Assembly (NCBI RefSeq): GCF_000195295.1
Contig: NC_015388.1
Span: forward strand, 2,108,001-2,172,000
DNA: 64,000 nt
Reading direction: 5' to 3'
Source: Desulfobacca acetoxidans DSM 11109
GTDB taxonomy: Bacteria > Desulfobacterota > Desulfobaccia > Desulfobaccales > Desulfobaccaceae
How positions within the stretch are numbered: the stretch's first letter is position 1; every line of letters begins with the position of its first letter. The notes beneath the pieces were generated by a model that worked only from the letters and a program-made list of their open reading frames with translations, was not told where the DNA came from and made no database searches. Below are positions 1,738 to 52,447 of the stretch, in pieces. Both the position numbers and the translations under genes were made by a program.

Positions 1738-2425
1738 ACATACTAACGTGATTCATTGGAAGCCGCTGACGGCCGTAGATTTCTTTGATCGTTGGGCGGT
1801 GGATGAAATAATCGTTTTAGATGTCAGCCGGAATAAGAAGCAGCGGAATAAATTTTACCAGGTGGTGGAAGAGCTATCTCAAAAGTGTTTTGTTCCTCTG
1901 ACGGTTGGAGGTTGGATTGATTCGGTAAATGAAATTCGCAAGTTGTTGCGTTTAGGGGGCGATAAGGTCGTAATCAATACCGAAGCCGTCCGCCGCCCGA
2001 CTTTGATTGCCGAATGTGCGCAGGTTTTTGGCAGCCAATGTATCGTTGTCTCAATTGATGCACGCATGAAAGAAGACGGTACCTGTGAGGTTTATATCGA
2101 TCGGGGTCAAGAGGCAACCGGGTTGGACCCGGTTGGTTGGGCTCGGGAGGTTCAAAAACTGGGGGCAGGGGAGATATTCTTGAATTGTATCGAGAGAGAC
2201 GGGTTTCGGCAGGGATACGAGTTAGGCCTGCTGCAGCAGGTTACTGCAGCGGTCGATATTCCCGTCATTGCCATGGGCGGTGTTTTTTCTTGGCAGCACC
2301 TGGTAGATGGGATAACTTTAGGAGGGGCCGAGGCCGTTGCCGCAGCTAATATCTTCCATTATACCGAACATAGTACGAAAAAGGCCAAAGATTATTTAAG
2401 GCAAGCAGGCATTGATGTACGATAG
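1667..2425 (+). CDS. HisF-like cyclase subunit of sugar amidation
   Basis: TIM-barrel protein of the HisF family, predicted to channel ammonia from the HisH-like partner. Family features include the N-terminal KKRLIPVLILRDG strand, PLTVGGW, the phosphate-binding GGDKVVINTEA loop, and PVIAMGG near the C-terminus. I chose ATG 1667 because GGAG at 1654-1657 is well spaced and the protein then begins like HisF; the frame extends upstream to a TTG at 1646 without good support. It overlaps the hisH-like gene, which suggests translational coupling. The divergent sequence and the neighbours point to the WbuY/WbuZ or HisF2 group that works with WbpG/PseA enzymes. Confidence 0.83.
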   Translation: MLKKRLIPVLILRDGMVVQSVRFKHTNVIHWKPLTAVDFFDRWAVDEIIVLDVSRNKKQRNKFYQVVEELSQKCFVPLTVGGWIDSVNEIRKLLRLGGDKVVINTEAVRRPTLIAECAQVFGSQCIVVSIDARMKEDGTCEVYIDRGQEATGLDPVGWAREVQKLGAGEIFLNCIERDGFRQGYELGLLQQVTAAVDIPVIAMGGVFSWQHLVDGITLGGAEAVAAANIFHYTEHSTKKAKDYLRQAGIDVR

Positions 2426-2490
2426 AGAAATTCGAAACCAAAGACCAGGTGCCGCGGTTCATCTAAAATACCTCTAAAGGAAGCTGATTG

Positions 2491-3792
2491 ATGGAATATT
2501 GCAAACGTTGTCTTTATCCCGCAAATGCCAAGCCCGCCATTATCTTTGACGAAGAGGGGGTTTGTAGTGGCTGCCGATATCATGAGTCCCGCCAGAATAT
2601 CGATTGGCGGGAACGTGAGAAATTGCTTCGGGAATTTCTTGAGACCTATAAGAAGAAATTCAAAGAAAAGGGAAATCCCTACGACTGCATAATCCCGGTG
2701 AGCGGCGGTAAAGATAGTCACTATCAAACCTACCTGATGAAAGTGGTATATGGCATGAACCCCTTGTTAGTGACCTATAATCACGCTTTTAATACCCCTC
2801 TGGGAATTAGAAACCTCAATAATCTTGTCACTCAGTTCGGTTGTGATCTCATCCGTTTCACTGCCAATCCGACTTCGGTACGTAAAATATCGCGCTACAT
2901 GCTGAAAAAAGTAGGTGACCTGACATGGCATTATCATGCCGGCATCCGGACCTTCCCCTTTCAAGTTGCCGTAAAATATAAAATCCCTTTAATCGTTTGG
3001 GGAGAACATGGGTTCGCCGAATTGACGGGAATGTTTACTCTGGAAGATATGGTCGAATTTACCAAGTGGACTAGGCAAGAGCATGATATGCGAGGTTTCG
3101 AGCCGGACGATCTTATTAACGACGAAAGCGGGATTACCTGGAATGATCTTGCCCCCTATGTTTACCCAACCTATGAAGAAATCGAAGAGCTGGGCGTCAG
3201 AGGAATTTATTTAAGCAATTTTCTGTACTGGAATGCCAAAGAACAGGCCGATTTTGTGATCAGCAACTATAATTTTAAAACATTTTCAGGAAAAAGAGAC
3301 AGGACCTTTTCCCTCTATACCAAAACAGATGACCACGCCAATGATGTTCACGATTACCTGAAGTACTTAAAATTCGGCTATGGCCGCGCCACGGATGACG
3401 CCAGCATGGAAATTCGCCATGGCCGGATGTCCAGAGAAGAAGGAATTGAAATGGTCAAACAATATGACCATGTCAGACCCCGCACCTTAGATACCTATCT
3501 AAAGTTTTTGGAGATAACTGAGGCGGAATTCTACGATTGGATCGAACCGATGCGAGACCCGGATATTTGGGAAAAGAATGATCAGGGAAAGTGGGTGGTC
3601 AATGATTCGGTTGTTAACCATGCCCATGATGAGGGTATAGATCATGTTAGGGTGCAACAGGTAGGAGATAAAACTTTCAGCGAACATAATAAAGGGTTGT
3701 ATTATCACGATGGCCTGGAGGAAAACCGGGAAAGCAATGAAGTCGCAGTTCGCGCCAATCGGATGGATACCTTGGATTTTATCGTTTTATGA
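2491..3792 (+). CDS. N-acetyl sugar amidotransferase (WbpG/PseA family)
   Basis: Cytoplasmic ATP-dependent enzyme predicted to turn an N-acetyl group on a nucleotide- or nonulosonate sugar into an acetamidino group, with ammonia supplied by the HisH/HisF-like pair before it. The N-terminus carries a four-cysteine cluster (CKRC about residue 4, CSGC about 28). The PP-loop SGGKDS of N-type ATP pyrophosphatases lies near residue 71. Its 433 residues are usual for WbpG/PseA. ATG 2491 has AAAGGA upstream; the TTG three bases earlier is not needed. Next to pseI, the product would be an acetamidino-pseudaminic acid, as made by Campylobacter PseA; the exact substrate cannot be read from sequence. Confidence 0.85.
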   Translation: MEYCKRCLYPANAKPAIIFDEEGVCSGCRYHESRQNIDWREREKLLREFLETYKKKFKEKGNPYDCIIPVSGGKDSHYQTYLMKVVYGMNPLLVTYNHAFNTPLGIRNLNNLVTQFGCDLIRFTANPTSVRKISRYMLKKVGDLTWHYHAGIRTFPFQVAVKYKIPLIVWGEHGFAELTGMFTLEDMVEFTKWTRQEHDMRGFEPDDLINDESGITWNDLAPYVYPTYEEIEELGVRGIYLSNFLYWNAKEQADFVISNYNFKTFSGKRDRTFSLYTKTDDHANDVHDYLKYLKFGYGRATDDASMEIRHGRMSREEGIEMVKQYDHVRPRTLDTYLKFLEITEAEFYDWIEPMRDPDIWEKNDQGKWVVNDSVVNHAHDEGIDHVRVQQVGDKTFSEHNKGLYYHDGLEENRESNEVAVRANRMDTLDFIVL

Positions 3793-3858
3793 ATTATGGC
3801 GTTCAAAGTAGAAGGGTTGCAGCCTATGCCGCCAGGTAATTTGTCCGGAGGAGAGAAA

Positions 3859-4494
3859 ATGCCGGAAACACCGCAACTAAAGATGTGGCAGGGTGATTTC
3901 GGCGAACAATATGCGGAACGCAACGAATTTGCGGATTGGAAACTTGATATCGGAAAAAGAGTTTTTCGCCGTATCCTGAAAGACTTAGAGTTCGGATCAG
4001 TTCTTGAAGTCGGCAGTAACATCGGAATGAATCTATGGTTTATGAACGAACTGTTCAAGGGTAGGATAAAACTCGGCGCCGTAGAACCGAATCGAAAGGC
4101 CTTTGAAAGATTAACCACCCAGACCTATATGCAGATTAGTGAGGCCTACAATTGCAGCGTCTTCGATATGCCTCTGCCTGACGCAAGTATTGACCTGGTT
4201 TTCACCTCCGGAGTTTTGATCCATATCGGACCGGATGACTTGGAACGAGCAGTGGACGAGATATTTCGGGTAGCCCGAAGATATATCCTCTGCATCGAAT
4301 ATTTTTCCCATTCTCCGGTCGAAGTCACCTATAGAGGCCATCAGGGTTTGCTTTTTAAGAGGGATTTCGGAGCCTTCTATCTTGACCGGTTCCCTAATTT
4401 GAAATGGCTGGACTACGGCTTTCTCTGGCAGCGCGAATTTCCCATTTTTGATAATTTAAACTGGTGGCTGTTTCAGAAAAAGCCCGGTTGTTGA
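3859..4494 (+). CDS. Pseudaminic acid biosynthesis-associated methylase
   Basis: Class I SAM-dependent methyltransferase resembling the small clade seen in pseudaminic acid operons (TIGR03587 type). The N-terminal WxGxFGxxYxERN signature is present as WQGDFGEQYAERN. SAM motif I is LEVGSNIGMN, and VFTSGVLIHI marks the later motif. ATG 3859 is preferred over the in-frame ATG 3796 because GGAGGAGAG at 3847-3855 sits just before it and the family starts there. It follows the amidotransferase gene by 66 bases and ends the plus-strand operon. It may methylate the nonulosonic acid or an amidino derivative; the position is unknown. Confidence 0.78.
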   Translation: MPETPQLKMWQGDFGEQYAERNEFADWKLDIGKRVFRRILKDLEFGSVLEVGSNIGMNLWFMNELFKGRIKLGAVEPNRKAFERLTTQTYMQISEAYNCSVFDMPLPDASIDLVFTSGVLIHIGPDDLERAVDEIFRVARRYILCIEYFSHSPVEVTYRGHQGLLFKRDFGAFYLDRFPNLKWLDYGFLWQREFPIFDNLNWWLFQKKPGC

Positions 4495-4525
4495 AGATAT
4501 CACCATATTATGCCGGCTTGGCATC

Positions 4526-5869
4526 TTAAATTCGAGGTATCCCCGATTCCGCCTGCCTTATCTTATCTTGCCACCGTATGACATCGCTCGGAGTGATATA
4601 CTTGGATTCCAGGAAGTAGGGTTTTACCCAAGGCATCAGACTCCACAGTACTTTCCAGGGATTACTGCCATAAGCCAGTCCGAGGAAATTTTTCACCTTT
4701 AGTTTCAAGGCCCTCCGCCGATCTTCGAGGTTGAGGTTAAACCCAGGGTCCGGCTGTTTTTCCAAGGCCTCGGCAATACATCGGGCTACCTTCAAGGATG
4801 AATCACCTGCCGGCGAGGTGCACCATGTGGCCAGATGTAATTGACGGTTTTCCCGGAGGTCCTCCTGGCGTGGATGGGCGAGTATTTCACCAACCAGATC
4901 CGGCAATTTCTCCGGATCATCGCAGAGGCGGTTACATCTTGAGGTTGCTTCATCAAAAAAAAGCGGGTGTCGGTCAAAAACTAGCTCAATGGTGGGTTTG
5001 CCTAAAATCCAGGATTCCAAAGCCGTAGTGCATCGTTCACAAGAGATTTCCAGGTGGCATGCTGGCAGCAGTTCGAATATCGTTTCCCGAAGGCGTAGGG
5101 ATATCCTTTCCTTGTGAGCAGGAGACAGTCCTTTAAACCACTTTTTGTAAGGTTCATGATCTTCTGACGGGTGTGGCTTGAGATCTAAGCTGTAGTCGGT
5201 TCGCGTTATCAGAGTGTTCAAGAAATCAAAAAATCTGGCTCTGGATCTGGCATTTACTTCAATAAATTCCCAATAATTACTGTAGGAAGGTAATCTGTCT
5301 TTCCAGGGGCTAAAATGCCGGTCGGCGTCAATTTTCGGTAAATCCTTATATTGCGCAAAAACAAAATTAGTGCAGACTAGCAGATGAGGCTTATGAGAGA
5401 CAACTCTTTGGGGATTGAAGAATATGTTTATCCAAGGCTCAAAGTAATAATCAAATCTGGGTACCCCTACTATAAAAATATTTTCTTCATTAAGGTTCAT
5501 GATTGTCATTAAGGCTTTTTTATGAAACTCATTCCAACAGAAGAATTGGTCGATATGGGCATAACTGTGGTATCGGCCGGCGTTAAATTCCAAGTCATCC
5601 TGATTATAGTTGATACCTTCGTTGGGAAGCACTCCTACTAAAATGCCCATGTCTCTTAATCTAATGGAAAAATAGGCTAAGTGGCTTGCCGTCAGGTGGT
5701 TGAACAGGATATAGTTCGGTTTAAAAGCAGCCAGGCAGGAACGCCAGGACTCCAGTGGTTGCAGAACGCACTTGAGGTGAAATCTCGTTTCCAAATGATG
5801 CGCCACAAGGGCCGCCCCGGGAAGATCTCTTTTTTTATTGTCAACTAAAATAACGACTGTTTTTGCCAT
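4526..5869 (-). CDS. Surface carbohydrate biosynthesis protein
   Basis: A 447-residue cytoplasmic protein resembling the surface-polysaccharide biosynthesis family with an overall glycosyltransferase-B or capsule-export-like fold. The N-terminus KTVVILVDNKKRDLPGA and the later motifs LPNEG, FIVGVPRFDYY, LKPHPSED and SCERCTTALESWILGKPT are typical of nucleotide-sugar-using or CDP-glycerol-transferase-like enzymes. The HP/E and C-terminal ALESWILGKP motifs suggest a GT-B acceptor domain. It converges on the pseudaminic operon and overlaps the upstream GT4 gene by 25 bases. The donor and acceptor are unknown, but the neighbourhood points to glycan decoration of flagellin, LPS or an exopolysaccharide. 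Confidence 0.65.
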   Translation of the reverse strand: MAKTVVILVDNKKRDLPGAALVAHHLETRFHLKCVLQPLESWRSCLAAFKPNYILFNHLTASHLAYFSIRLRDMGILVGVLPNEGINYNQDDLEFNAGRYHSYAHIDQFFCWNEFHKKALMTIMNLNEENIFIVGVPRFDYYFEPWINIFFNPQRVVSHKPHLLVCTNFVFAQYKDLPKIDADRHFSPWKDRLPSYSNYWEFIEVNARSRARFFDFLNTLITRTDYSLDLKPHPSEDHEPYKKWFKGLSPAHKERISLRLRETIFELLPACHLEISCERCTTALESWILGKPTIELVFDRHPLFFDEATSRCNRLCDDPEKLPDLVGEILAHPRQEDLRENRQLHLATWCTSPAGDSSLKVARCIAEALEKQPDPGFNLNLEDRRRALKLKVKNFLGLAYGSNPWKVLWSLMPWVKPYFLESKYITPSDVIRWQDKIRQAESGIPRI

Positions 5870-40705: not shown

Positions 40706-41002
40706 ATGCCCATGCGACCGTCCGTTGTGCTCGACATGAAGCGAAGCGCGGTGCGCGAAGCGGTAAGCCGCTTCCGCACGGCGAACCCGCGCGTCTTCAG
40801 TTCGGTGCTGCATGGCACCGACCGGGACGGCAGCGACCTCGACCTGTTGGTTGACGCGCTGCCTGGTGCCACGTGGTTGAACTTGGGCGATTTGGAAGAA
40901 GAACTGAAATTGCTGCTCGGCGTTGACGTTGATTTGCTGACGTCTAGCGACCTGCCGCCGAAGTTCCGGGCCAAGGTGCTCGCGGAGGCGCAGCCGGTAT
41001 GA
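40706..41002 (+). CDS. mntA: MntA-like nucleotidyltransferase antitoxin
   Basis: A 98-residue minimal nucleotidyltransferase of the MntA/HepT toxin-antitoxin type. The active-site stretch is RVFSSVLHGTDRDGSDLDLLVD, where the usual GS (VFGS) is SS and the DLD acid pair remains. MntA transfers AMP to the HepT toxin tyrosine to silence it. Its base composition is clearly more GC-rich than the flanking island, a sign of transfer. Its stop overlaps the hepT start by four bases. Confidence 0.78.
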   Translation: MPMRPSVVLDMKRSAVREAVSRFRTANPRVFSSVLHGTDRDGSDLDLLVDALPGATWLNLGDLEEELKLLLGVDVDLLTSSDLPPKFRAKVLAEAQPV

Positions 41003-42787: not shown

Positions 42788-43949
42788 TTAGTGTCCGGCA
42801 CAATAATTGAGTAAGTCCATCTGGTTATTTATGGAGGTAGGCGGACGTTTTTTTGGACAAATGGTTTCCCAAAGTGAACGTCGTTCCATCAATGTGGCTT
42901 GAATGAGTCGAGACGATTCTAAGATGCCGATATTTATGGTGGTTTTTATTTTTAACCAGATGAGCAGCAAATAGGCTATTAAAGCAGTCCAGATTTGGAT
43001 TAAGACGGCATTTCGGGAAGTGCCATAAAAGGTTTTGATTTTCAGATTCTGTTTGACCCACTTGAAAAAAAGCTCTATCTGCCAACGTTGTCGGTAAAGA
43101 TCTGCGATGGCGAGGGCAGACAGGTCAAAGCGATTGGTTAAAAAGACATATTCTTTGCCAGTTTCAGGGTCTCGGTAGTGCACCCGGCGCAGGGTGCCTT
43201 GATAGCTATGAAGACCATGCTCGGAGTTCAAACGGATGATCTCGTCAGTTAGAACCCTGTCAGGAGCGGGATTTTTCAACGTTTCGATGACCTCGAAGCA
43301 GGCATTGGATTTCAGTCGGGTCACAAACCAGACGCCTTTCTGGTGGAGGCGATGCAGCCAGGCATAATCGATGTAACCACGGTCAAAAATTAATAAATCA
43401 CCTGGATCGAATTGCAGCGTTTTGGCAATTTGCATGTCGTGAATCTTGGCTTCGGTCAGGATGACGCATTTCGGCAGCATATCCGTTATCACCGTATGCA
43501 ACTTAATGCCAGCCTTGCGGGCTCGAAAGTAAGTCCAGGGGAAAACGCTGGCACAGAGATCAATGGTGGTCGAATCAAGGATTTTTATCTTGGACTGCCG
43601 TTTATTGTTACGGGTCATCTCGCTATAGAAGCGGTGCAATAATTTGTGATAAACCTCTTCAAAAATAATGGCCGGACATTGTTCATTAGCCTCTGCCAGG
43701 GTAGAGCGTTTCACCTCGGACTGGCCCAAGTGATAAAGTTTCTTGACGTGTTGATCGAGACTAAACACCAAATCCCGGAGACTCTTGCGACTACTGAATT
43801 GGGCGTATAGCATGGCGCCAAACTGTGACCAATATGAAAATGTTCTGGGCTTCGGGCCTGCCCAGGAATGGGTATCAACGATATGGTCGAAAACATGTCT
43901 CGGTACTAGTTGTAGCATTTGCCCCAAAGATTGTGTTAAGATGTGCCAT
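42788..43949 (-). CDS. IS4-family transposase with N-terminal frameshift
   Basis: DDE transposase of the IS4 family. The conserved core includes ILDSTTIDLC, IFDRGYIDYAW, FVTRLKSNA and the YREK-like YRQRWQIELFFKWVKQNL. The frame read as one piece starts at TTG 43927 or ATG 43918. The better start is ATG 43949, preceded by AAGGGGG, which encodes MAHLNTIFG; but a run of four G (43922-43925) shifts the frame there, and with one G removed the sequence reads on as QMLQLVPRH. The element is therefore probably frameshifted, or the run is a sequencing error. Confidence 0.85.
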
Positions 43950-44070
43950 AGCCCCCTTAACTCTCCTATGTTATTTGGTTTTTAGGTAAAACGTTATAAC
44001 AAAAATGGCGGTTATGGGGACTTTTTTATTAAATATTATTTGACTTTTTTACGTATCATCTACCGGACAG
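42791..44070 (-). mobile_element. IS4-family insertion sequence
   Basis: A 1.28-kb element. Its ends carry TGTCCGGCA (42792-42800) and, in the opposite strand, TGTCCGGTA (from 44069), imperfect inverted repeats. The transposase fills the element. No clear target duplication is seen. One end supplies the last codons of the neighbouring ATPase gene. Confidence 0.75.
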
Positions 44071-45556
44071 CAGTGATTTTTTTTAATAATTCTTTGCAAT
44101 ATCCTCCAGCAAGATCGCGTTCATGTTCATACAGTGCTGCATCTCTATTGTGAGCTAATGGTGTCCTGATCTTTGCCAGCAAGTTGCTGTGAGGATTCCA
44201 ATACTTTGTATCCTTTCCCATTATCGATTTAAAGACATCCCATTCAGCAAAAATAATGGCAAATAAATCTTTTGGATAAGAAAAATCTAGCAAAGAATTT
44301 GATGCCCTGCTACCAAAAGTTTTTTCTTCTTTTTTTTGGGCTACCTGGCATTGTTCGAATATGTTTTTCAGATGTGGCCGTGCCTTTAATAATTTTTCAA
44401 CCCAGTTATCTCCATATTTTTTAATCATGGTATTGGTAATAAAATTTCGGAGAGTAATTTCTGTTTCCCTCCATAATGACCAAAGATCGCTCTGACGTTC
44501 TATCATCTTTAAATAGTCTTGAAAGTGTTTTGAAAATGCGACATATTCTCCTTGGTCAGAGACTAATATTAAAGAATAACGAAGTAATTCCTCCGCATCA
44601 GTTTGCTTGACATCAAAAACAGGCCCAAAGAGAATTTGAAGCATTTTATCAAGGGTACCATCTTCTTTTAAGATATTGATCATATGATCATAGTGATCGA
44701 GGAAAGATCCTCTAACGCGAAGAGCAGCTTTATCTATATCTATTCCTTGATTTTCTCTAAGTGCTTCGACAAGTTCATACCCTATCATTTCTAACAGATA
44801 AGGATGTCCACCGCATATGATATTCAGATCCTCTTGCTGATCGGTTGTCATATTTATTCCGACATTTGAAAAACACTTAAAATACTGTTGCAAATCTTCT
44901 TGATTAAACATGCCCAAATAATGTTTATGAAAAATCCCATCAAGAGTTGAAATAGCCTTAGTTTGTAATTCAATTTCCCGAAGTGAGCGTCTTGAGGTAG
45001 TAATAAAGGTTACACGCCATTCTGGTCGATAAGAAAGTTCCCGTAATCCCTGAAAACCGGAAATATCTCCTTTAAATAAGAGCCTGGCATGGTCAAATTC
45101 GTCTAATATAAATATAATGCGATAACCATATTGACGAACCTTTTCAAAATATCTTTGAATTCTTCTATAGCCTTCACCCCAGGATAATTCATCCTCTAAA
45201 GCACGGTTAGCAGCAACTTTGATTGTATCAGTGACCAATCCCAAGTCATCCATTTCATCATAGCAACTAGTAACGAGGGAACGAAAAAATATTGCAGCTC
45301 TATCATAAGTTGCTAAATTGATCCAAATTGGAAGCATGTTTTTAGCCTGGAGATCAATTCGACGTTCCATAGTCGCTTTATAAACCAGACTACTCTTCCC
45401 TATGCGATAATCTCCTATTATTGCAAGATTACCAGATTCAAAGGGACGAATAACTCTATTTTCTATGGCTTCCAAGCTTTCTCGACGTCCGATAAATCGA
45501 TTACCGCTAACTATTCCACCGTAATCAGAAAAAGGATTTTCAAAATAAGATGACAT
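44060..45556 (-). CDS. STAND-type ATPase with C-terminal HEPN-like domain
   Basis: A 498-residue protein and second gene of the operon. Residues about 20-345 form an AAA/STAND NTPase: FIGRRESLEAI, Walker A GDYRIGKSSL (48-57), Walker B IIFILDEFDH (147-156), TTSRRS (sensor) and the GGHPYLLEMIG helix. Residues about 358-498 look like a Swt1-type HEPN domain, WRETEITLRNFIT, then NLLAKIRTPLAHNR with R464-x4-H469, the catalytic motif of HEPN RNases. ATG 45556 follows TAGGAAT, so the gene is coupled to the stop of the upstream gene. The stop codon comes from the IS4 end. Nuclease activity is inferred. Confidence 0.8.
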   Translation of the reverse strand: MSSYFENPFSDYGGIVSGNRFIGRRESLEAIENRVIRPFESGNLAIIGDYRIGKSSLVYKATMERRIDLQAKNMLPIWINLATYDRAAIFFRSLVTSCYDEMDDLGLVTDTIKVAANRALEDELSWGEGYRRIQRYFEKVRQYGYRIIFILDEFDHARLLFKGDISGFQGLRELSYRPEWRVTFITTSRRSLREIELQTKAISTLDGIFHKHYLGMFNQEDLQQYFKCFSNVGINMTTDQQEDLNIICGGHPYLLEMIGYELVEALRENQGIDIDKAALRVRGSFLDHYDHMINILKEDGTLDKMLQILFGPVFDVKQTDAEELLRYSLILVSDQGEYVAFSKHFQDYLKMIERQSDLWSLWRETEITLRNFITNTMIKKYGDNWVEKLLKARPHLKNIFEQCQVAQKKEEKTFGSRASNSLLDFSYPKDLFAIIFAEWDVFKSIMGKDTKYWNPHSNLLAKIRTPLAHNRDAALYEHERDLAGGYCKELLKKITAVR

Positions 45557-45564
45557 TTTTATTC

Positions 45565-48500
45565 CTATTGATGGGCAATTAGCCATTCATTAAAGAGGCC
45601 GACTTGGATTAAATAATATTGGCCTCCCTCTCGTTCAATAACTTCTCGTTTGACAAGATCGTCGAGTATTTCATCAACGGGCTTAGAGGTTTCACAAAGA
45701 ATATTATAACGATTACAGGGACCCGTTTTACTGTTGAAAGCTATTGCTGTTAATACTTTATTGGCATCTTCGTTACTAATGGCGTCTTCAGAGGTATCGC
45801 CAGAATTTAAAAGATTATCAAATTTATCAAGATCTAAGGCATTAGGCCCTCGAATTAGATCATCTTTTACTTGCTCAATATCTGCTTCGGTAACTAAACG
45901 GGCATGCTTCCTATTCATATAATCTACCAAGCGATTACAAAGGATTTGAATGTAAAAAGGACTACCAGCCGTTAAATTAATTATACGGTCCATCGCCTTT
46001 TCCCGGTAGCGACTTTCACCTTGACGACCGCCTATACGAATCGGTTCATCAATAAGCTTAATTGCATCTTCGCGCTTTAGATAGGTAACCCGTTCATCTT
46101 GTGCTATTCCGAACTCATTAGGAAAGCGCTGTTTGAATTTTGGCATAACATCTTGACCTACAAGAACAGCACTAAAATAGTTTTCCTGTAATAACGCTTT
46201 CCAATTTTTCATAAAGTTTTCAGGAAGACTTCCTGCCGTAATATAACCATAAATATAAGAAAATTCATCTATAAGTAAAATAATTCGGGAATTGCGCCAC
46301 TCTTGTGATTTTTCACAAGAACGTCTAAATTTTTCAAATATATTTCTAAAGAGGCTGAGTGGACTATGATGTTCATAAAATCCTTTTTCACTAGGGATAG
46401 TAATTCCTAATGAAGCAAATCCATTACTCACCTTATCTTCAAGAGCATATTCTAATTTTCTTAATATCTCGAAAAGTATTTGATATAATAGAGGTATTTT
46501 TGAATGATCATCCAATATTTTTCCTATATTTCCTATATCAATAATTAATAATTCTTTATTAGAAGTTAGTTTGGTTTTAAGATGATGCAAAATTGATGAT
46601 TTGCCTGCACGAGCCTGGCCAAAAATGACAACACATTTACTTTGTAGGCGAGATTCCATAATGGTTTTCGCCACATTTATAATCAGCTCCTCCCTACCGT
46701 AAAACATTCTTGGATCACCGACAATCCCTCCCTCAGCATAAGCTGCATAAGGATTATCTATTTTTTCAAATTCAGTCTCGGAATAAAGACGTATTGAGAA
46801 ATTTTTGATGGAAGTCGATATGACCTCCCCAGATCTAGTTCTATATTGAGTATATACCGGTAAGGAAAATGTCTGAGAATTTATTGTCTCTTTGCTTAAA
46901 TGAAGCGGCACCCGGAGAATGAATTGTTCCGCTCCCCTCAGAGAGCGGTCCAGTTTGATATCAGGCACTTTGAGATCAAAGGCTGCTTCATGTTCCTGTT
47001 GTTGTATAATTAATTCTAATGCTTCAGCTGGACTACATCCGATCCGATTGTTAACGGCAATTTGAACTTCAATATCTTGATTGTTATCAGGAAAATATGA
47101 TTCAACCGGTAATCGGAGGGTTAACTGAGGCATAGAGCTTTTATATAGTTCTTCTAAATATGAGGCAGCTTTATTTTTGATTTCCCAAATGACTGGGAAT
47201 AAATCTTCAACGGAAAATTTTGTTGGACTATTTTCAATTTCCATTAGTAAATCTTGACAGCGATTGCCAATTTGAAGAGAAAGACGTTCTTTTTCTTCAA
47301 ATGTTGTTTGATTACACAATTCTAACGAAGTTTCAAATATATTACGCAATTGGAGCATTCTTTCTTGGTCGAGATCTATAGAGGGTCTTTCACTAAGCTT
47401 TTTGATCACTTGCAAAATATTTTCTAAGGATGCTGTAGTAAATTCCATATTGGACAATAAGCGAACTTCGTTAGAAACATTACGTGCAGCTTCTGCACTC
47501 TTTTTTTGCAGCATATTCCACAATGTCACAAAATCATTTAATTTCATTGATGACTTACCAGCTGATATTTCTGCACTTTTCAAGAATTCTAAAGCCATCG
47601 CCTGGTGAGATGCTTTGTCATAAAGTCGGTTTAATATCCGATTTGCAGCATATCGGCTACGAAATACAAGATAAGCAATTGAATTGAATACTTTAACCCC
47701 TTCTGGGTGATTTGTCAGAACAAAATCTAATGTTTCATCAATAGAAGGAATATTTGGCTTCATTGGAATATTGGTTTGTCCTAAGGTAGAATATAAAAAT
47801 CTAACTAACGCATTTACGGCATCTTGTTCATCCTTGCTCTTTCTATCCCCATCATATGCGCTCAGAGCTTCAGCGTAATATGCCCGGGCTGCAGCCAGAG
47901 GTCTGCCTTCAATGACAATAGCATCACCCTTTGAAGCGAAGCAACGACCAAGATACCGTGAAAAATAATTAGGATCACCCTCTTCTAAAAGTGATGCTAT
48001 TTTAGCTGCAGAAAGGTAATATGCAGCACGATCTGATGGTCTGCTAGTACCCAACTTAGTTGCCAGTTCTTCTAACTTTTTTATATCATGCGGGCTGAAG
48101 GTTTGTTTTTGAACTCGATCAGCTTGCACTCCCTCATATTTACAACGATCAAGAAAAAACCTTGTAAACCTTGAAATATCTCCTGAAAAAGCTGTTAGTG
48201 TTGTTTCGATGACAATTTCGTCAATTTTTACAGGTTGTCCTGCTATGGCTTGATTGATTGCTTCGAGTATCTCTGCCGACTTAACATCAGTAGAGATATT
48301 AAGGATTTTTTGAAGCAATTTTTTTGCTTCGTCATAATGGCCTTGCTTTGATAAACATATAGCGATGTTTCTTTGTACCGTTACATTATCAGGCTGCTTG
48401 GTAAGGATTTTTCTAAAAAATTGCTCGGATTGACCGTAGTCTCCCTTTTTTAAATTCATAAGTGCAATCTGAAATAAATAAGGTGCCCTTTTAATCTCAT

Positions 48501-50271
48501 TATCAGCCTGTTTAAGTTTTTTCTGAAGGAGGGTTATGGCATGATCATATTGACCAGCATTTTGATACGAAGTAATTAATAAGTTATCTATGGATTTAGG
48601 ATCACTACTTACCTGCTTATGGCTTTCTAATGTTTTAATAGCTTCTTCTGGTTTGCCTTGTTGGACTAATACTGATGCTAAATCTTTAACTGCACTTTCG
48701 GTATTATCTCCTCTTTTAATAGCTTCACGTAGTAATTGAACAGCCTTGTCGAGATCTTTTTCGATTAGTTGTGCCCTTTTTGCCCTAGCATAAGGAGTAC
48801 TCCCTTTTGGTACACCAGTCACTCGTGTGTATTCACGCCACTTATTCTGTAATTCCTTAGCGCTAGGGTATTCTGGGTCAATTTCTATAAGTTTATTAAT
48901 CTGGGCAATGGCTTGGGGATAATCACCTTCATTAGCGTATTCTGACGCTCGACTTAACATCTCATCCATGGTTCGAAACATCAATATCCTAATTGCTACA
49001 GGTCCTTTTATACCTTGGGCAACATCAAATATTACTGGTATCCTTTCCCCTGGATTCAGATAAAGGACTTTGTCCAATAATTCATTATCTAAAATTGCAC
49101 TTCGATGAAAAAAGTAATCATCTCCATCGATACCCTCTAAAAATCCATAATTTCTATCTCGTTTAAAATTATATATGTATCCTTGAGGTTGGTGATTATC
49201 TTCTTTTTCAAGGTGGTTATCCTCCTCTAATTCAGTTAACTCTGATTTTATAATTTGATAACCCTCGCCTAATTGTTCCCCTAAAAAGTTGAGCATATTC
49301 TTTATTATGGTTATTGCTTCTTTATTCTCTGACCTGTCTCTCAAAATGTTTATTGCAGAATCGTTATTATTGATACATAAAAGTAAGTATATTCCTGTTT
49401 CTATCATGATATTTATTTCTTCATCAGAGATATTGGTTCCTTTATTAATTAATATATTGTTCAATATTCCGTAATTTGAATGCTCATTAATTAACTTAAC
49501 CAAGACATACCACGCCTTCATTTCTTGAAAAAATTTTACATTATAAAAATAATTTTCTAATCCATAGCATGCCAATTCTTCATTCCCATTTATAATTCCC
49601 AAGACGGCCAAATTATACCAATCTATTAATTCTTTTGATTTCGCTGCCGTTTCTTTATAGAGGTCCAAAGCCTTCTTATAATCTTTACAAAGCCATAAAA
49701 TATAGGCTAACTGTCTTTTAATACTTGGAGAATTAGGAAATCGACCCGAAAGAGCTATCATTTCATGGAGAATCGGTTGAATTCTACCGAATTTTTCACT
49801 TAGTTCATTTACTTTTACTGCGTAATTATATTTTTCCCTAAGTTTATTCCAAATGTTCTTAGCATCATGGGCCTGTTTGCCTATAATTTCGTCATCGGGT
49901 AATATAAAATCAGGATTTTTGAGTTCATTAATATTTGCTACCTGAAGCTCAGCATTAAAACGAGCCTTTATTTCAATAAGTTGCTTATCTAATTCTTGAT
50001 TGGTAATATCCTGAGATTGGGGAACGTCTTTCAGTTTATTGGTCTTATCATAAGCAAATGATTCAATTTGATCACTTGAATCTGTCAGTTCTTCCCACAT
50101 TCCAATCATTTCTGCAATAATCGTCTTAATCTGACCTTCAGATTTTAATGTGACATGATTAAGACTAATTTCCGTCAATATGCCCGATACCTCTTTACCA
50201 GTTTTAAGATGTAAGGTTATATTAGTTCCCAAGGGAATTTGTTTTTGAATCAATCGAATAATCTCTTCCAT
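45565..50271 (-). CDS. Large Sm-like/cold-shock/TPR/STAND ATPase protein
   Basis: A 1568-residue cytoplasmic protein, first gene of an operon with the STAND-HEPN gene. Visible parts are: an Sm-like domain (1-62: GTNITLHLKTGKEVSGILTE); a helical region (80-350); a cold-shock-like domain (364-430: YNFKRDRNYGFLEG and DDYFFHRSAI, akin to RNP1 and RNP2); TPR repeats (432-680); a helical middle (690-1045); a beta-rich segment (1050-1165); a STAND/AAA ATPase (1185-1480: FYGREELI, Walker A GQARAGKSS at 1218, Walker B ILLIDEF at 1331, GSPFYIQILC); and a winged helix (1500-1568). RNA-binding parts beside an ATPase suggest an RNA sensor. I know of no named family with this order. Confidence 0.85.
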   Translation of the reverse strand: MEEIIRLIQKQIPLGTNITLHLKTGKEVSGILTEISLNHVTLKSEGQIKTIIAEMIGMWEELTDSSDQIESFAYDKTNKLKDVPQSQDITNQELDKQLIEIKARFNAELQVANINELKNPDFILPDDEIIGKQAHDAKNIWNKLREKYNYAVKVNELSEKFGRIQPILHEMIALSGRFPNSPSIKRQLAYILWLCKDYKKALDLYKETAAKSKELIDWYNLAVLGIINGNEELACYGLENYFYNVKFFQEMKAWYVLVKLINEHSNYGILNNILINKGTNISDEEINIMIETGIYLLLCINNNDSAINILRDRSENKEAITIIKNMLNFLGEQLGEGYQIIKSELTELEEDNHLEKEDNHQPQGYIYNFKRDRNYGFLEGIDGDDYFFHRSAILDNELLDKVLYLNPGERIPVIFDVAQGIKGPVAIRILMFRTMDEMLSRASEYANEGDYPQAIAQINKLIEIDPEYPSAKELQNKWREYTRVTGVPKGSTPYARAKRAQLIEKDLDKAVQLLREAIKRGDNTESAVKDLASVLVQQGKPEEAIKTLESHKQVSSDPKSIDNLLITSYQNAGQYDHAITLLQKKLKQADNEIKRAPYLFQIALMNLKKGDYGQSEQFFRKILTKQPDNVTVQRNIAICLSKQGHYDEAKKLLQKILNISTDVKSAEILEAINQAIAGQPVKIDEIVIETTLTAFSGDISRFTRFFLDRCKYEGVQADRVQKQTFSPHDIKKLEELATKLGTSRPSDRAAYYLSAAKIASLLEEGDPNYFSRYLGRCFASKGDAIVIEGRPLAAARAYYAEALSAYDGDRKSKDEQDAVNALVRFLYSTLGQTNIPMKPNIPSIDETLDFVLTNHPEGVKVFNSIAYLVFRSRYAANRILNRLYDKASHQAMALEFLKSAEISAGKSSMKLNDFVTLWNMLQKKSAEAARNVSNEVRLLSNMEFTTASLENILQVIKKLSERPSIDLDQERMLQLRNIFETSLELCNQTTFEEKERLSLQIGNRCQDLLMEIENSPTKFSVEDLFPVIWEIKNKAASYLEELYKSSMPQLTLRLPVESYFPDNNQDIEVQIAVNNRIGCSPAEALELIIQQQEHEAAFDLKVPDIKLDRSLRGAEQFILRVPLHLSKETINSQTFSLPVYTQYRTRSGEVISTSIKNFSIRLYSETEFEKIDNPYAAYAEGGIVGDPRMFYGREELIINVAKTIMESRLQSKCVVIFGQARAGKSSILHHLKTKLTSNKELLIIDIGNIGKILDDHSKIPLLYQILFEILRKLEYALEDKVSNGFASLGITIPSEKGFYEHHSPLSLFRNIFEKFRRSCEKSQEWRNSRIILLIDEFSYIYGYITAGSLPENFMKNWKALLQENYFSAVLVGQDVMPKFKQRFPNEFGIAQDERVTYLKREDAIKLIDEPIRIGGRQGESRYREKAMDRIINLTAGSPFYIQILCNRLVDYMNRKHARLVTEADIEQVKDDLIRGPNALDLDKFDNLLNSGDTSEDAISNEDANKVLTAIAFNSKTGPCNRYNILCETSKPVDEILDDLVKREVIEREGGQYYLIQVGLFNEWLIAHQ

Positions 50272-50302: not shown

Positions 50303-50308
50303 ATTATA
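50303..50308 (-). promoter_or_regulatory. Possible -10 box of the STAND operon
   Basis: On the minus strand, TATAAT at 50308-50303 stands about 32 bases before the ATG, in an AT-rich stretch. Eighteen bases upstream is TTCATA, a weak -35. The SD is a GAGAG near 50283. The promoter is uncertain. Confidence 0.4.
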
Positions 50309-50387
50309 TCAAAAAATAATTGTTATTATGAATGATATTATGATCATTATCTCTGGGAAAACAGAATCAAGATTCTCGAGATAATTT

Positions 50388-50932
50388 AAGACTGTTGCAA
50401 AACGTATCGAAAATACTACGTGAAATTGATATCAAAAAGGCTCGTGAAATTGCCTAACATGTGGTAATATCAAGGAAATACATTTTCCGAGGTTGATATG
50501 ACCAATAAAGGCGGAGCCAACGGTTCATTTTTTGGCAACCATATTTATGAAAACCTCCTAGCCCGGCGATCGCACCTCCAGTATGAACTGAGTCAGGTGG
50601 TGGATTTCAGTTTTGTTCGAAATATCTGCCGGGATTTTTATGTTGATTGGGGCAGGTACGCTTGGGATCCGGTGCTGATGTTCAAGATGGTCTTTCTCCA
50701 ATTTCTCTATGATCTTTCCGATCGCGAGGTAAAAGAGCAGATTACCTTCAACATGGCCTTCAAGTGGTTTCTGGGTCCGAGTGCTGAGGAGTTCCCGCCG
50801 GACCACACCACCTTGTGCCGCTTCCGGCAACGTTTGGGGGCCGATGGTTTCCGGACCTTTTTCAACGCGGTGGTGGAGCAAGCCAGAAGCCAGGGCTTTG
50901 TTTCTGATCGACTGCATATCCTGGATGTGTAA
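50388..50932 (+). mobile_element. IS1182/IS5-like element remnant, left part
   Basis: Begins near AGACTGTTGCAAAACG, an inverted-repeat-like end as found in IS5/IS1182 elements, and holds a cut-off transposase. The right end was not found. It lies upstream of the STAND operon and marks one border of the island. Confidence 0.6.
50498..50932 (+). pseudogene. IS1182-like transposase fragment (N-terminal)
   Basis: 144 residues of the DUF772-type N-terminus of IS1182/IS5-group transposases: YELSQVVDFSFVRNIC, DPVLMFKMVFLQFLYDLSDREVKEQI and FPPDHTTLCRFRQRLG. The frame ends right after LHILDV, where family members continue for about 300 more residues with the catalytic core. It is inactive. Confidence 0.82.
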
Positions 50933-51067: not shown

Positions 51068-51385
51068 TCAATGCTTCCTCTCCAACCGATACCGCAGCCG
51101 GTAATCCCTATCATACACCTTATCGCCACCCGTCCGATATTTTAATCGGTATTCCCGATCATAAATTTTACCATCATCAACCCGGTAGCGCAGCGTATAA
51201 TCCCGGTCGTAGATTTTGTTGCCATCGATGCGATATTGCTGGCGGTAATTTCGGTCATAAACTTTTCCGCCCCGGATGCGGTATTGGAGGCGGTAATTAT
51301 CATCATAGACATCCACATCTTCCGCTGCTGCAGTAGGAAATACCCCAGAGATAATTGCCAGCAGCAAAAATATCGTCAGACCCAT
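51068..51385 (-). CDS. Secreted YDRxYR-repeat protein
   Basis: A protein of about 105 residues. ATG 51385 gives a signal peptide (LTIFLLLAIISGVFPTAAA); an earlier ATG at 51421 is possible. The mature part is five copies of a 16-residue unit of the form VYDRxYRxxYRxxGxK, for example VYDRNYRQQYRIDGNK and IYDREYRLKYRTGGDK. The unit is rich in Tyr, Arg and Asp. I do not recognise a family function. Such repeats may bind surface polymers or form a beta-solenoid. It is the last gene before the IS1182 fragment. Confidence 0.7.
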   Translation of the reverse strand: MGLTIFLLLAIISGVFPTAAAEDVDVYDDNYRLQYRIRGGKVYDRNYRQQYRIDGNKIYDRDYTLRYRVDDGKIYDREYRLKYRTGGDKVYDRDYRLRYRLERKH

Positions 51386-51439
51386 ATAACCAAATGTATC
51401 GGCTCGGCTGTGGCTCCACATAAGCTTTTATACCTCGCG

Positions 51440-52447
51440 TTATCTCACCAGGTTATGGCGTCTCCCAGAAGCCCGGCGCAAGGGTCTTCCATTATTGCCG
51501 GTTCTCTGACCGATATCTTTCTGAAAAAGGCTCAATTGCAAAATCTGCTCCTCAAACTCCAAACCGGCACCAACGACGTTCTCTGATTCAAGCCGCATAT
51601 CCCACCCGAGAGAAACAGATTTTCTCCTATCCAGAGGGGATTTAGCCGCATCTGCCAGAAAGCCGATTAATATATTAAACGAACGGGAAGTCTGTTCTTT
51701 CGGAGCCTCAATATCATTTTCGAGAGCATCCATGACATAACTCGAGACCAATTTATGGTAGAGGAGTTGAAATTTGTCATGGTTCCCTAAATATTCGACC
51801 CCGGCTATATTGCCATCAATAAACACCGCCAGGCCCATTTGTTTATCCACCAGGGAAAAGTTTTTCAGATAATCTTCGGTGATATCTTTTTTGGCTTCAC
51901 AGAGATCGGACAAGGCCATGGTGGGAGAGGGGGGTGCCTGACAGCGGACAAATTTCCGCTCAATCTCTTGCCAAATCTCACCCTGGTCCGAAGCAAAGGA
52001 ACCTGATTGACGCACCCTTTCATGGACAGATTGTGCTTTACTCTTGCGCAAACAAGCGCTCATGGTTCGGTTGGCGCTGCTGAATTCCCGGCTTTTATAT
52101 GACCAACGTCCCTGCTCGATACAGGAAACCGGAATTAAAGACTCAGAATTGGGAGCCAATAAAATCGTGACATTCAAGACCCGATTCTGCTTAGCCCCTA
52201 CCAGTTCCTCTCCATCCAATAATAAAATTTTCTGCTTGGAATTATTGACCACCTTTAATTCGGGAACCCGGCCTGATTCATCGATTTCCGTGATAACCAA
52301 GGCGCTCAGGGCCAGGGCCTCATCCAGGGTAATAAATTCCACCTGAGCACCTTGGTTAGCCAGTAAAGGGAAGATAGCCATATTTTTATAGAACTGCTCC
52401 GGGCCTACCGATATATCGGCCAGAAATGACGCCAGAATATTTTCCAT
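51440..52447 (-). CDS. ARPP-1/DUF6569-type protein
   Basis: A 335-residue protein of the ARG and Rhodanese-Phosphatase-superfamily-associated (ARPP-1) group. The core has FITLDEALALSALVITEI, then KILLLDGEELVGAKQNRVLNVTILL, IPVSCIEQGRW. The domain is linked to phosphatase-type proteins but its reaction is not established. GGGAGG precedes ATG 52447. It is 36 bases downstream of the Cys-rich membrane gene, so they are likely one operon. Confidence 0.7.
   Translation of the reverse strand: MENILASFLADISVGPEQFYKNMAIFPLLANQGAQVEFITLDEALALSALVITEIDESGRVPELKVVNNSKQKILLLDGEELVGAKQNRVLNVTILLAPNSESLIPVSCIEQGRWSYKSREFSSANRTMSACLRKSKAQSVHERVRQSGSFASDQGEIWQEIERKFVRCQAPPSPTMALSDLCEAKKDITEDYLKNFSLVDKQMGLAVFIDGNIAGVEYLGNHDKFQLLYHKLVSSYVMDALENDIEAPKEQTSRSFNILIGFLADAAKSPLDRRKSVSLGWDMRLESENVVGAGLEFEEQILQLSLFQKDIGQRTGNNGRPLRRASGRRHNLVR

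Follow-up and report, generated by a model that had tools for sequence, protein, structure and literature searches.

Two Coupled STAND Genes in Desulfobacca acetoxidans

In the genome of Desulfobacca acetoxidans DSM 11109, we analysed a window of 64,000 nucleotides (contig NC_015388.1, positions 2,108,001 to 2,172,000), in which two neighboring open frames, both on the minus strand and here called gene A and gene B, code for a sensor-type and an effector-type STAND protein. An earlier reading, made from the letters of the window and hereafter called the sequence-only reading, had proposed at this place a possible undescribed two-gene STAND/HEPN system in an island bounded by insertion sequences (IS). 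We found that the pair, as far as sequences can tell, is a conserved, co-evolving two-gene unit present over about nine phyla. Its best reading is probably that of a two-component STAND switch of immune type, carrying a ribonuclease (RNase) effector.

The coupled arrangement of 1568 and 498 residues was found as the sequence-only reading had described it, both in the open reading frames (ORFs) and at their junction. The stop codon TAG of gene A sits within AATAGGAATAAAAATG, so that a Shine-Dalgarno-like TAGGA overlaps it, and a gap of 8 bases separates gene A from the ATG of gene B. An alternative ATG for gene B, at 45586, would give a protein of 508 amino acids (aa). The features of the pair and of its flanks are collected in Table 1.

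Table 1. Features of the gene pair and its flanks (positions of the window; residues of the encoded protein)
Feature	Position	Strand	Basis
Gene A, sensor-type STAND protein	45565..50271	-	ATG start, 1568 aa; ORF call and homologues
Sm-like small beta-barrel, A residues 1-64	50080..50271	-	AlphaFold2 (AF2) model and weak profile matches
Cold-shock domain (CSD), A residues 360-434	48970..49194	-	Pfam CSD above cut-off
TPR array, A residues 435-680, then more helical repeats to ~1045	48232..48969	-	Pfam TPR families and AF2 model
Beta-sandwich linker, A residues 1045-1166	46774..47139	-	Strands 1050-1162 in AF2, directly before STAND1
STAND ATPase 1 (STAND1), A residues ~1183-1568, with C-terminal winged-helix-like region	45568..46725	-	Motifs, Pfam, alignment
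A/B junction, stop TAG overlapping TAGGA, 5' of gene B ATG	45554..45567	-	Sequence
Gene B, effector-type STAND protein	44060..45556	-	ATG at 45556, stop 44060-44062, 498 aa
STAND ATPase 2 (STAND2), B residues 1-350	44507..45556	-	Motifs and AF2 fold
Swt1-type HEPN domain, B residues 356-498, R464-x4-H469 (RTPLAH)	44063..44491	-	Pfam HEPN_Swt1 above cut-off
Sigma-70-like promoter match TTCATA-18-TATAAT with extended -10, upstream of gene A	50303..50332	-	Pattern search alone, little better than chance
IS transposase, 379 aa, flanking the pair, outside the system	42788..43927	-	Pfam DDE_Tnp_1 and DUF4372
Truncated DUF772 transposase, 144 aa, other flank, outside the system	50498..50932	+	Pfam DUF772

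Domain Organization of Gene A

The gene A protein begins with a small barrel. In its AF2 model, which covered residues 1-1190 with a mean predicted local distance difference test score (pLDDT) of 83.5, residues 2-61 form a helix followed by five strands, i.e., the Sm/LSm order (pLDDT of this block mostly 84-89). A profile of the first 64 residues matches LSm4, archaeal Lsm, and Hfq at E 0.002-0.1. Because these matches reach just such values, with SH3 barrels of the BirA type interspersed between them, we call this N-terminus Sm-like and do not present it as a proven Sm protein; the Pfam match of the region also falls below cut-off. The fold search with the gene A model returned a list filled by TPR proteins, which is uninformative on the Sm-like domain.

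The cold-shock domain is more firmly placed. The Pfam CSD family matches residues 363-429 above its cut-off (E 1.5e-6), a cold-shock family profile reaches solved CSD proteins at E 6e-10, and the AF2 model has an OB-like barrel at 363-431. Wherever the domain is present among homologues, its RNP-type residues G17, F18, Y27, F28, F29, and H30 (domain numbering) are invariant. The RNA-binding-type module announced for gene A is thereby borne out, with its Sm-like half resting on the model and on weak profiles. Behind it, Pfam TPR families cover residues 435-660, where AF2 shows all-helical repeats. The beta-sandwich is conserved beside STAND1, and a similar region precedes STAND1 in relatives linked to a methylase or to a TIR domain. 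STAND1 itself carries a Walker A GQARAGKSS (K1224), a Walker B LLIDEF (D1335, E1336), and a GSP motif (1436-1438); ATPase_2 and nSTAND1 of Pfam match it at 1190-1430, both under their cut-offs.

The front of gene A has a counterpart elsewhere. On a Methanomethylovorans plasmid (L002, 8959-19904; the L numbers are those of the loci we compared), a separate protein resembles the Sm-like and cold-shock front; the genes after it encode a TPR protein, two helicases, and an HSP90-like protein, and this locus adjoins csa3. There, the front seems to serve as a sensor module for other machinery.

Domain Organization of Gene B

The second ATPase has a Walker A GDYRIGKSS (K54), a Walker B DEFD (D152-D155), and a GHP motif (250-252). 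The AAA and STAND profiles of Pfam stay under cut-off in gene B. The AF2 model (mean pLDDT 84.9) has the Pyrococcus ATPase 2qen as its nearest fold (Z 19.6), and CED-4 and other ATPases of apoptosomes and resistosomes follow at Z ~16. Walker A, Walker B, GxP, and a winged-helix region, i.e., the marks of STAND proteins, are thus all found, with Pfam matches to single ATPase families below cut-offs.

The C-terminal end was predicted to be HEPN-like with an R-x4-H motif, and this prediction holds. HEPN_Swt1 (PF18731) matches residues 368-493 at E 1.6e-7, with 32.1 bits for a cut-off of 27.5; the same family is matched at E 0.001 or better in 20 of 22 gene B homologues, and residues 358-497 are all helical in the AF2 model. 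R464 and H469 lie exactly where they had been placed. Gene B is also the sole frame of its genome with HEPN_Swt1 above cut-off.

Conservation and Co-Evolution of the Pair

Relatives were collected with a STAND1 profile scan of 84,980 species genomes, which gave 249, and the best 80 of these 249 were examined. Thirty of them are close relatives, at 38-71% identity. Gene A has 21 full-length homologues (31-59% identity across the whole length) and gene B has 21 (36-64%). In nearly all close loci with a viewable contig, a gene of ~500 aa comes after gene A, with a start resembling that of gene B and R-[NTD]-P-x-[AG]-H at its end; the gap between the two is -21 to +19 bases in most homologous loci. 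The pair is kept in ~26 loci, in Chloroflexota, Poribacteria, Latescibacterota, Cyanobacteriota, Bacillota, and archaea. Three more divergent loci of the Ruminococcus group encode proteins of ~1700 and ~540 aa, the latter ending in RNPLFH. A homologue of one gene almost always comes with a homologue of the other, and the proposed two-gene system therefore stands; homologues that are always single and unlinked, which would have spoken against it, are not what was found.

In a maximum-likelihood tree of STAND1, the window, its close relatives, and the Ruminococcus group form one clade (34 rows, support 100/100). The tree has a midpoint root and long branches, and we therefore used only its well-supported groups. 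This monophyletic, Sm-containing clade comprises Chloroflexota, Cyanobacteriota, Poribacteria, Latescibacterota, Bacteroidota, Bacillota, Pseudomonadota, and methanogenic archaea.

The catalytic residues of both proteins are conserved. The two Walker A/B pairs that had been seen in the window are conserved among relatives, as GQ[AK]R[AST]GKSS with LL(I/L/V)DEF in gene A and GxxRIGKSS with DEFD in gene B. K1224, D1335, and E1336 do not vary among 22 gene A sequences, and the same holds among 22 gene B sequences for the Walker A lysine and serine, DEFD, R464, P466, and H469; the Walker A glycine is damaged in one gene B relative. Both genes evolve under purifying selection, with pairwise ratios of nonsynonymous to synonymous substitution rates (dN/dS) of 0.09-0.28. 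Mean identity to the gene A of the window is lowest in the first 200 residues (35-37%), intermediate in the TPR and cold-shock parts (44-50%), and highest in STAND1 (63%), from which it follows that the putative sensor changes fastest.

The distances within gene A and within gene B are strongly correlated (r = 0.93, 19 pairs), and 0 of 5000 permutations gave as high a value. Moreover, unrelated loci share almost no neighbors other than A and B, save three Poribacteria and two near-identical Latescibacterota. Since neighboring genes are almost never shared between loci, A and B constitute the minimal conserved unit.

Exchange of the Effector and Sister STAND Pairs

The strongest clue to the function of the pair comes from relatives in which the HEPN slot has changed. 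In Thermogemmatispora (L038), STAND2 is kept, the HEPN domain is recognizable and has lost its R and H, and a Ser/Thr kinase has been gained (E 2e-37). In a locus of Chloroflexota (L113), degeneration has reached both the HEPN motif and the Walker A, and RNDRTH occurs in a segment added at the C-terminus, to which no Pfam family could be assigned. Methanoregula (L034) has a single fusion of A and B, in which SLFN_AlbA_2 stands in place of HEPN. In Okeania (L035), an EAD1-trypsin gene lies directly after gene A, and gene B was not found in that genome. In a locus of Bacteroidales (L029), gene B stops short of HEPN. The Sm-like domain is present in every gene A homologue having a complete N-terminus, whichever the effector. 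These loci show that different effectors can occupy the slot behind the second STAND, the receptor and both ATPases being retained.

The same loci help to judge what the HEPN domain does. It probably cuts RNA. It could also be a regulatory RNA-binding or dimerization module, as suggested by the eukaryotic Swt1 HEPN domains, which are held to be inactive in the HEPN survey of Anantharaman et al. (2013, PMC3710099). We consider this quite improbable: R-x4-H is invariant in 22/22 aligned gene B sequences, its loss in L038 and L113 is accompanied by an added kinase or HEPN-like segment, and the table of that survey terms the group to which gene B belongs mostly active.

A toxin-antitoxin-like arrangement, in which gene A would restrain gene B and the loss of A would be the trigger, is more improbable still. 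The genes are tightly coupled and gene B alone could be toxic, as such a pair would have it; against this, A is three times the size of B, has an ATPase of its own, is retained when the effector of B changes, and is fused to B in Methanoregula.

The HEPN, kinase, SLFN, TIR, and restriction-modification (R-M) versions have homologous STAND2 domains (97-100% probability in profile comparison), and the relation of STAND1 to STAND2 is more distant (97% probability). Two sister arrangements have the same STAND1/STAND2 pair. The first is a clade of type I R-M operons found in Planctomycetota, proteobacteria, and an Acinetobacter plasmid (L003, 6253-11779; also L069, L056, L067, and others). Its gene 1 carries an N6-methylase, a specificity domain, a sandwich-like region, and a C-terminal STAND1, and it overlaps a gene 2 made of STAND2 and a C-terminus with RNRTEH; some members have GDFGQH instead, without the arginine. 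The sensor part is here a methylase with its specificity domain. Homology of this C-terminus to the HEPN of gene B is unsupported (hhalign, 0.1% probability), although RNRTEH occurs in part of the clade. The second is a TIR pair (L007, L066, also L060, and L008, at 1836-5410 in a deltaproteobacterial metagenome-assembled genome), in which a short sandwich-STAND1 gene overlaps a gene with TIR and STAND2; it differs from the pair of the window by its N-terminal TIR in gene 2 and by having no Sm-like, cold-shock, or TPR sensor. Another clade of STAND1 relatives, found in cyanobacteria and Chloroflexota (L045, L046, L052-L055, L061, L063, L064, and others), starts with membrane-type or beta-propeller regions and mostly lacks a second STAND gene.

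Acquisition of the Pair and Genomic Context

There are strong signs that the pair was acquired horizontally in D. acetoxidans. Its G+C content is 33-36%, vs. 52.9% for the whole genome, and in a sample of 297 genomes of the same phylum it is present in this one alone, the other 296, including one of the same genus, being without it. As for the IS remnants that had been read on both sides, the right one is indeed a DUF772 fragment; the left one has a complete-looking transposase frame of 379 aa and, judged by it, is not a remnant. The two belong to different types, which rules out a composite transposon.

A second site in the same genome (L116, 2264500-2271500), ~116 kb from the locus, retains both flanks of the pair. 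It has, in order, an IS fragment (matching 42981-43521 of the window), 62 bases (matching 44016-44077, ending within gene B), ~1 kb of IS66-like remnants, and 344 bases (matching 50382-50725), with none of the other coding sequence of gene A or gene B left. This may be what a deletion left of a second island copy, or merely a shared IS cluster.

Several other frames lie around the pair: an ARPP-1 domain protein at 51443-52447 on the minus strand (Pfam E 4.7e-101), of a family named for its ARG and rhodanese-phosphatase association; a 117-aa frame of short repeats of the YRxxxxKIYDRDYxLRYR type at 51068-51421 on the minus strand, with no Pfam match; and a 98-aa MNT-type nucleotidyltransferase at 40706-41002 on the plus strand, for which an adjacent HEPN partner is not obvious.

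The defense context expected for the system is partly supported. NERD-UvrD lies beside one relative (L017), a CHAT protein near another (L015), and Cas1e and AbiLi are among the neighbors of others; we state their presence near some relatives and claim no enrichment. Housekeeping genes are found beside other relatives.

Relation to Known Systems

The HEPN-STAND protein is not new. Table 1 of the 2013 survey (PMC3710099) lists Desac_1927, with Npun_F6454 and MED222_16016, as Swt1-like HEPN fused to "STAND-ATPase, TPR, S1" and "mostly active". Gene B is almost certainly Desac_1927, as we infer from this entry and from gene B being the sole above-cut-off HEPN_Swt1 of the genome. The HEPN-STAND combination and the likely RNase effector were thus already stated in that one table entry. 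On the other hand, the main text of the survey does not mention the two-gene STAND-STAND unit, the Sm-like domain, or the swapped effectors; within the literature searched, Desac_1927 is named in no further paper and no description of a two-gene system with these domains was found. The term "undescribed" of the sequence-only reading is therefore right only in part, the HEPN-STAND gene being almost certainly that of the survey. What we have not found described in the literature searched is the division of sensor and effector between two STAND ATPases, the Sm-like receptor, the effector replacements, and the occurrence in about nine phyla. As a kind, conflict systems in which STAND ATPases work with interchangeable effectors are known.

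Among these, the Avs/NLR-type STAND defense proteins join a STAND ATPase, a repeat sensor, and a swappable effector, and ATP-driven assembly is their expected logic. In Avs all three parts are in one protein, whereas sensor and effector are here carried by two STAND ATPases. The Avs models of PADLOC match neither gene A nor gene B, and membership was rejected because there are two genes with two STAND domains, of which the second carries the effector at its C-terminal end. A PADLOC candidate, PDC-M34, has a component (PDC-M34B) matched by the HEPN region of gene B (E 2.7e-9); the match is confined to that region, and gene A has none to PDC-M34A. The CoCoNuTs, which are type IV restriction systems with a predicted RNA target, combine cold-shock, HEPN, and NTPase parts (PMC11090510). 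Their core consists of a McrB-type GTPase and a McrC-type nuclease, both absent from the Pfam and PADLOC matches of A and B, and the pair was not assigned to them. STAND1 also gives a weak profile match to mad8, the ATPase gene of MADS (E 0.0016). This is the sole sign of MADS, which was rejected; no other MADS gene was recognized among the neighbors in the window (Pfam scan).

Proposed Mechanism and Its Alternatives

We propose that gene A is the receptor of a STAND-based conflict system, immune-type and probably abortive. Its front, made of the Sm-like domain, the cold-shock domain where present, and the TPR and other helical repeats, would recognize a signal derived from an invader or from damage, and this signal may well be RNA or an RNA-protein complex. 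Binding would act through the beta-sandwich on STAND1, which would exchange its nucleotide and assemble with the STAND2 of gene B. This mixed assembly is proposed because STAND1 is nearly always found with STAND2 while sensor and effector change. Assembly would then join the HEPN domains of gene B as an active dimeric ribonuclease, and this dimer would cut cellular RNA, phage RNA, or both, stopping the growth of the infected or stressed cell and, if phage is the invader, giving protection. In relatives, the slot of the HEPN would bear another effector, with receptor and both ATPases retained. We hold with good confidence the general part of this proposal, i.e., a STAND receptor plus an exchangeable effector, which is an RNase in the present case.

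The ligand is more tentative. RNA is attractive because gene A has Sm-like and cold-shock parts; we regard it as a possibility that falls clearly below an even chance, and a protein ligand bound by the repeats of gene A is equally open. The latter could be a structural or replication protein of a phage, sensed as in Avs by the TPR and helical repeats, which make up most of gene A, with the Sm-like and cold-shock parts serving assembly or localization. In keeping with this, the cold-shock domain is dispensable and one glycine alone is fully invariant across homologues in the Sm-like barrel. In favor of RNA, the Sm-like domain is kept wherever the N-terminus is complete, regardless of the effector, and the RNP-type aromatic and histidine residues do not vary when the cold-shock domain is there.

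Several observations weigh against an immune switch with an RNA sensor and an RNase effector. Of 22 gene A sequences, 14 have the cold-shock domain and 8 lack it, so RNA sensing through it is not essential to the family. The fold search with the gene B model listed no HEPN structure, ATPases filling the list, and no solved relative was found with the HEPN family profile. The co-evolution signal is partly the shared descent of linked genes. Two copies are degraded, one frameshifted (L018) and one in which gene B is convergent, with a stop and R-x4-Y (L039). Gene B has no match in plasmid and phage collections, and no close relatives were found in viral contigs. Finally, neighborhoods are mixed: besides the loci with defense genes, other relatives adjoin infC-rplT-pheST and further housekeeping genes, and the three Poribacteria hold the pair in a conserved chromosomal context.

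Because these Poribacteria share their context, a resident stress system fits there as well, and the mixed neighborhoods make it a serious rival. In such an RNA quality-control module, the Sm/cold-shock/TPR protein would gather damaged or stalled RNA-ribosome complexes and license their cleavage by HEPN, phages not being the main target. The Sm-like and cold-shock parts, the translation genes (infC, rplT, pheST) near some relatives, and the long-term constraint indicated by dN/dS all agree with this. We nevertheless judge it unlikely as a whole. The distribution of the pair is very patchy (1/297 genomes in its own phylum, 6/301 sampled Chloroflexota genomes), the signs of transfer are strong at this locus, HEPN has repeatedly been replaced by kinase, SLFN, or protease, and sister STAND pairs stand in type I R-M and TIR operons; each of these traits is typical of conflict systems.

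The immune-type switch may also be an instance of a more general architecture, for which our confidence stops somewhat short of even. Sensing and killing would be carried by two paralogous STAND ATPases that must co-assemble, the STAND1/STAND2 core being constant. Gene 1 would take the sensors (Sm/cold-shock/TPR, methylase-specificity, and others) and gene 2 the weapons (HEPN, TIR, kinase, Schlafen, or a second HEPN). The Sm-like branch would then sense RNA through its receptor and have an RNase, a protease, or a kinase as its output.

Significance

In the known bacterial STAND defense proteins, sensor, switch, and effector are usually one chain, whereas here a putative receptor ATPase and a putative executioner ATPase are encoded side by side. 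This probable split switch stays together across bacteria and archaea while its weapons change. If A and B do form a mixed assembly, they would resemble the helper/sensor pairs of plant NLRs. A receptor with Sm-like and cold-shock parts would also be a candidate for a protein-only sensor of foreign RNA in bacteria.

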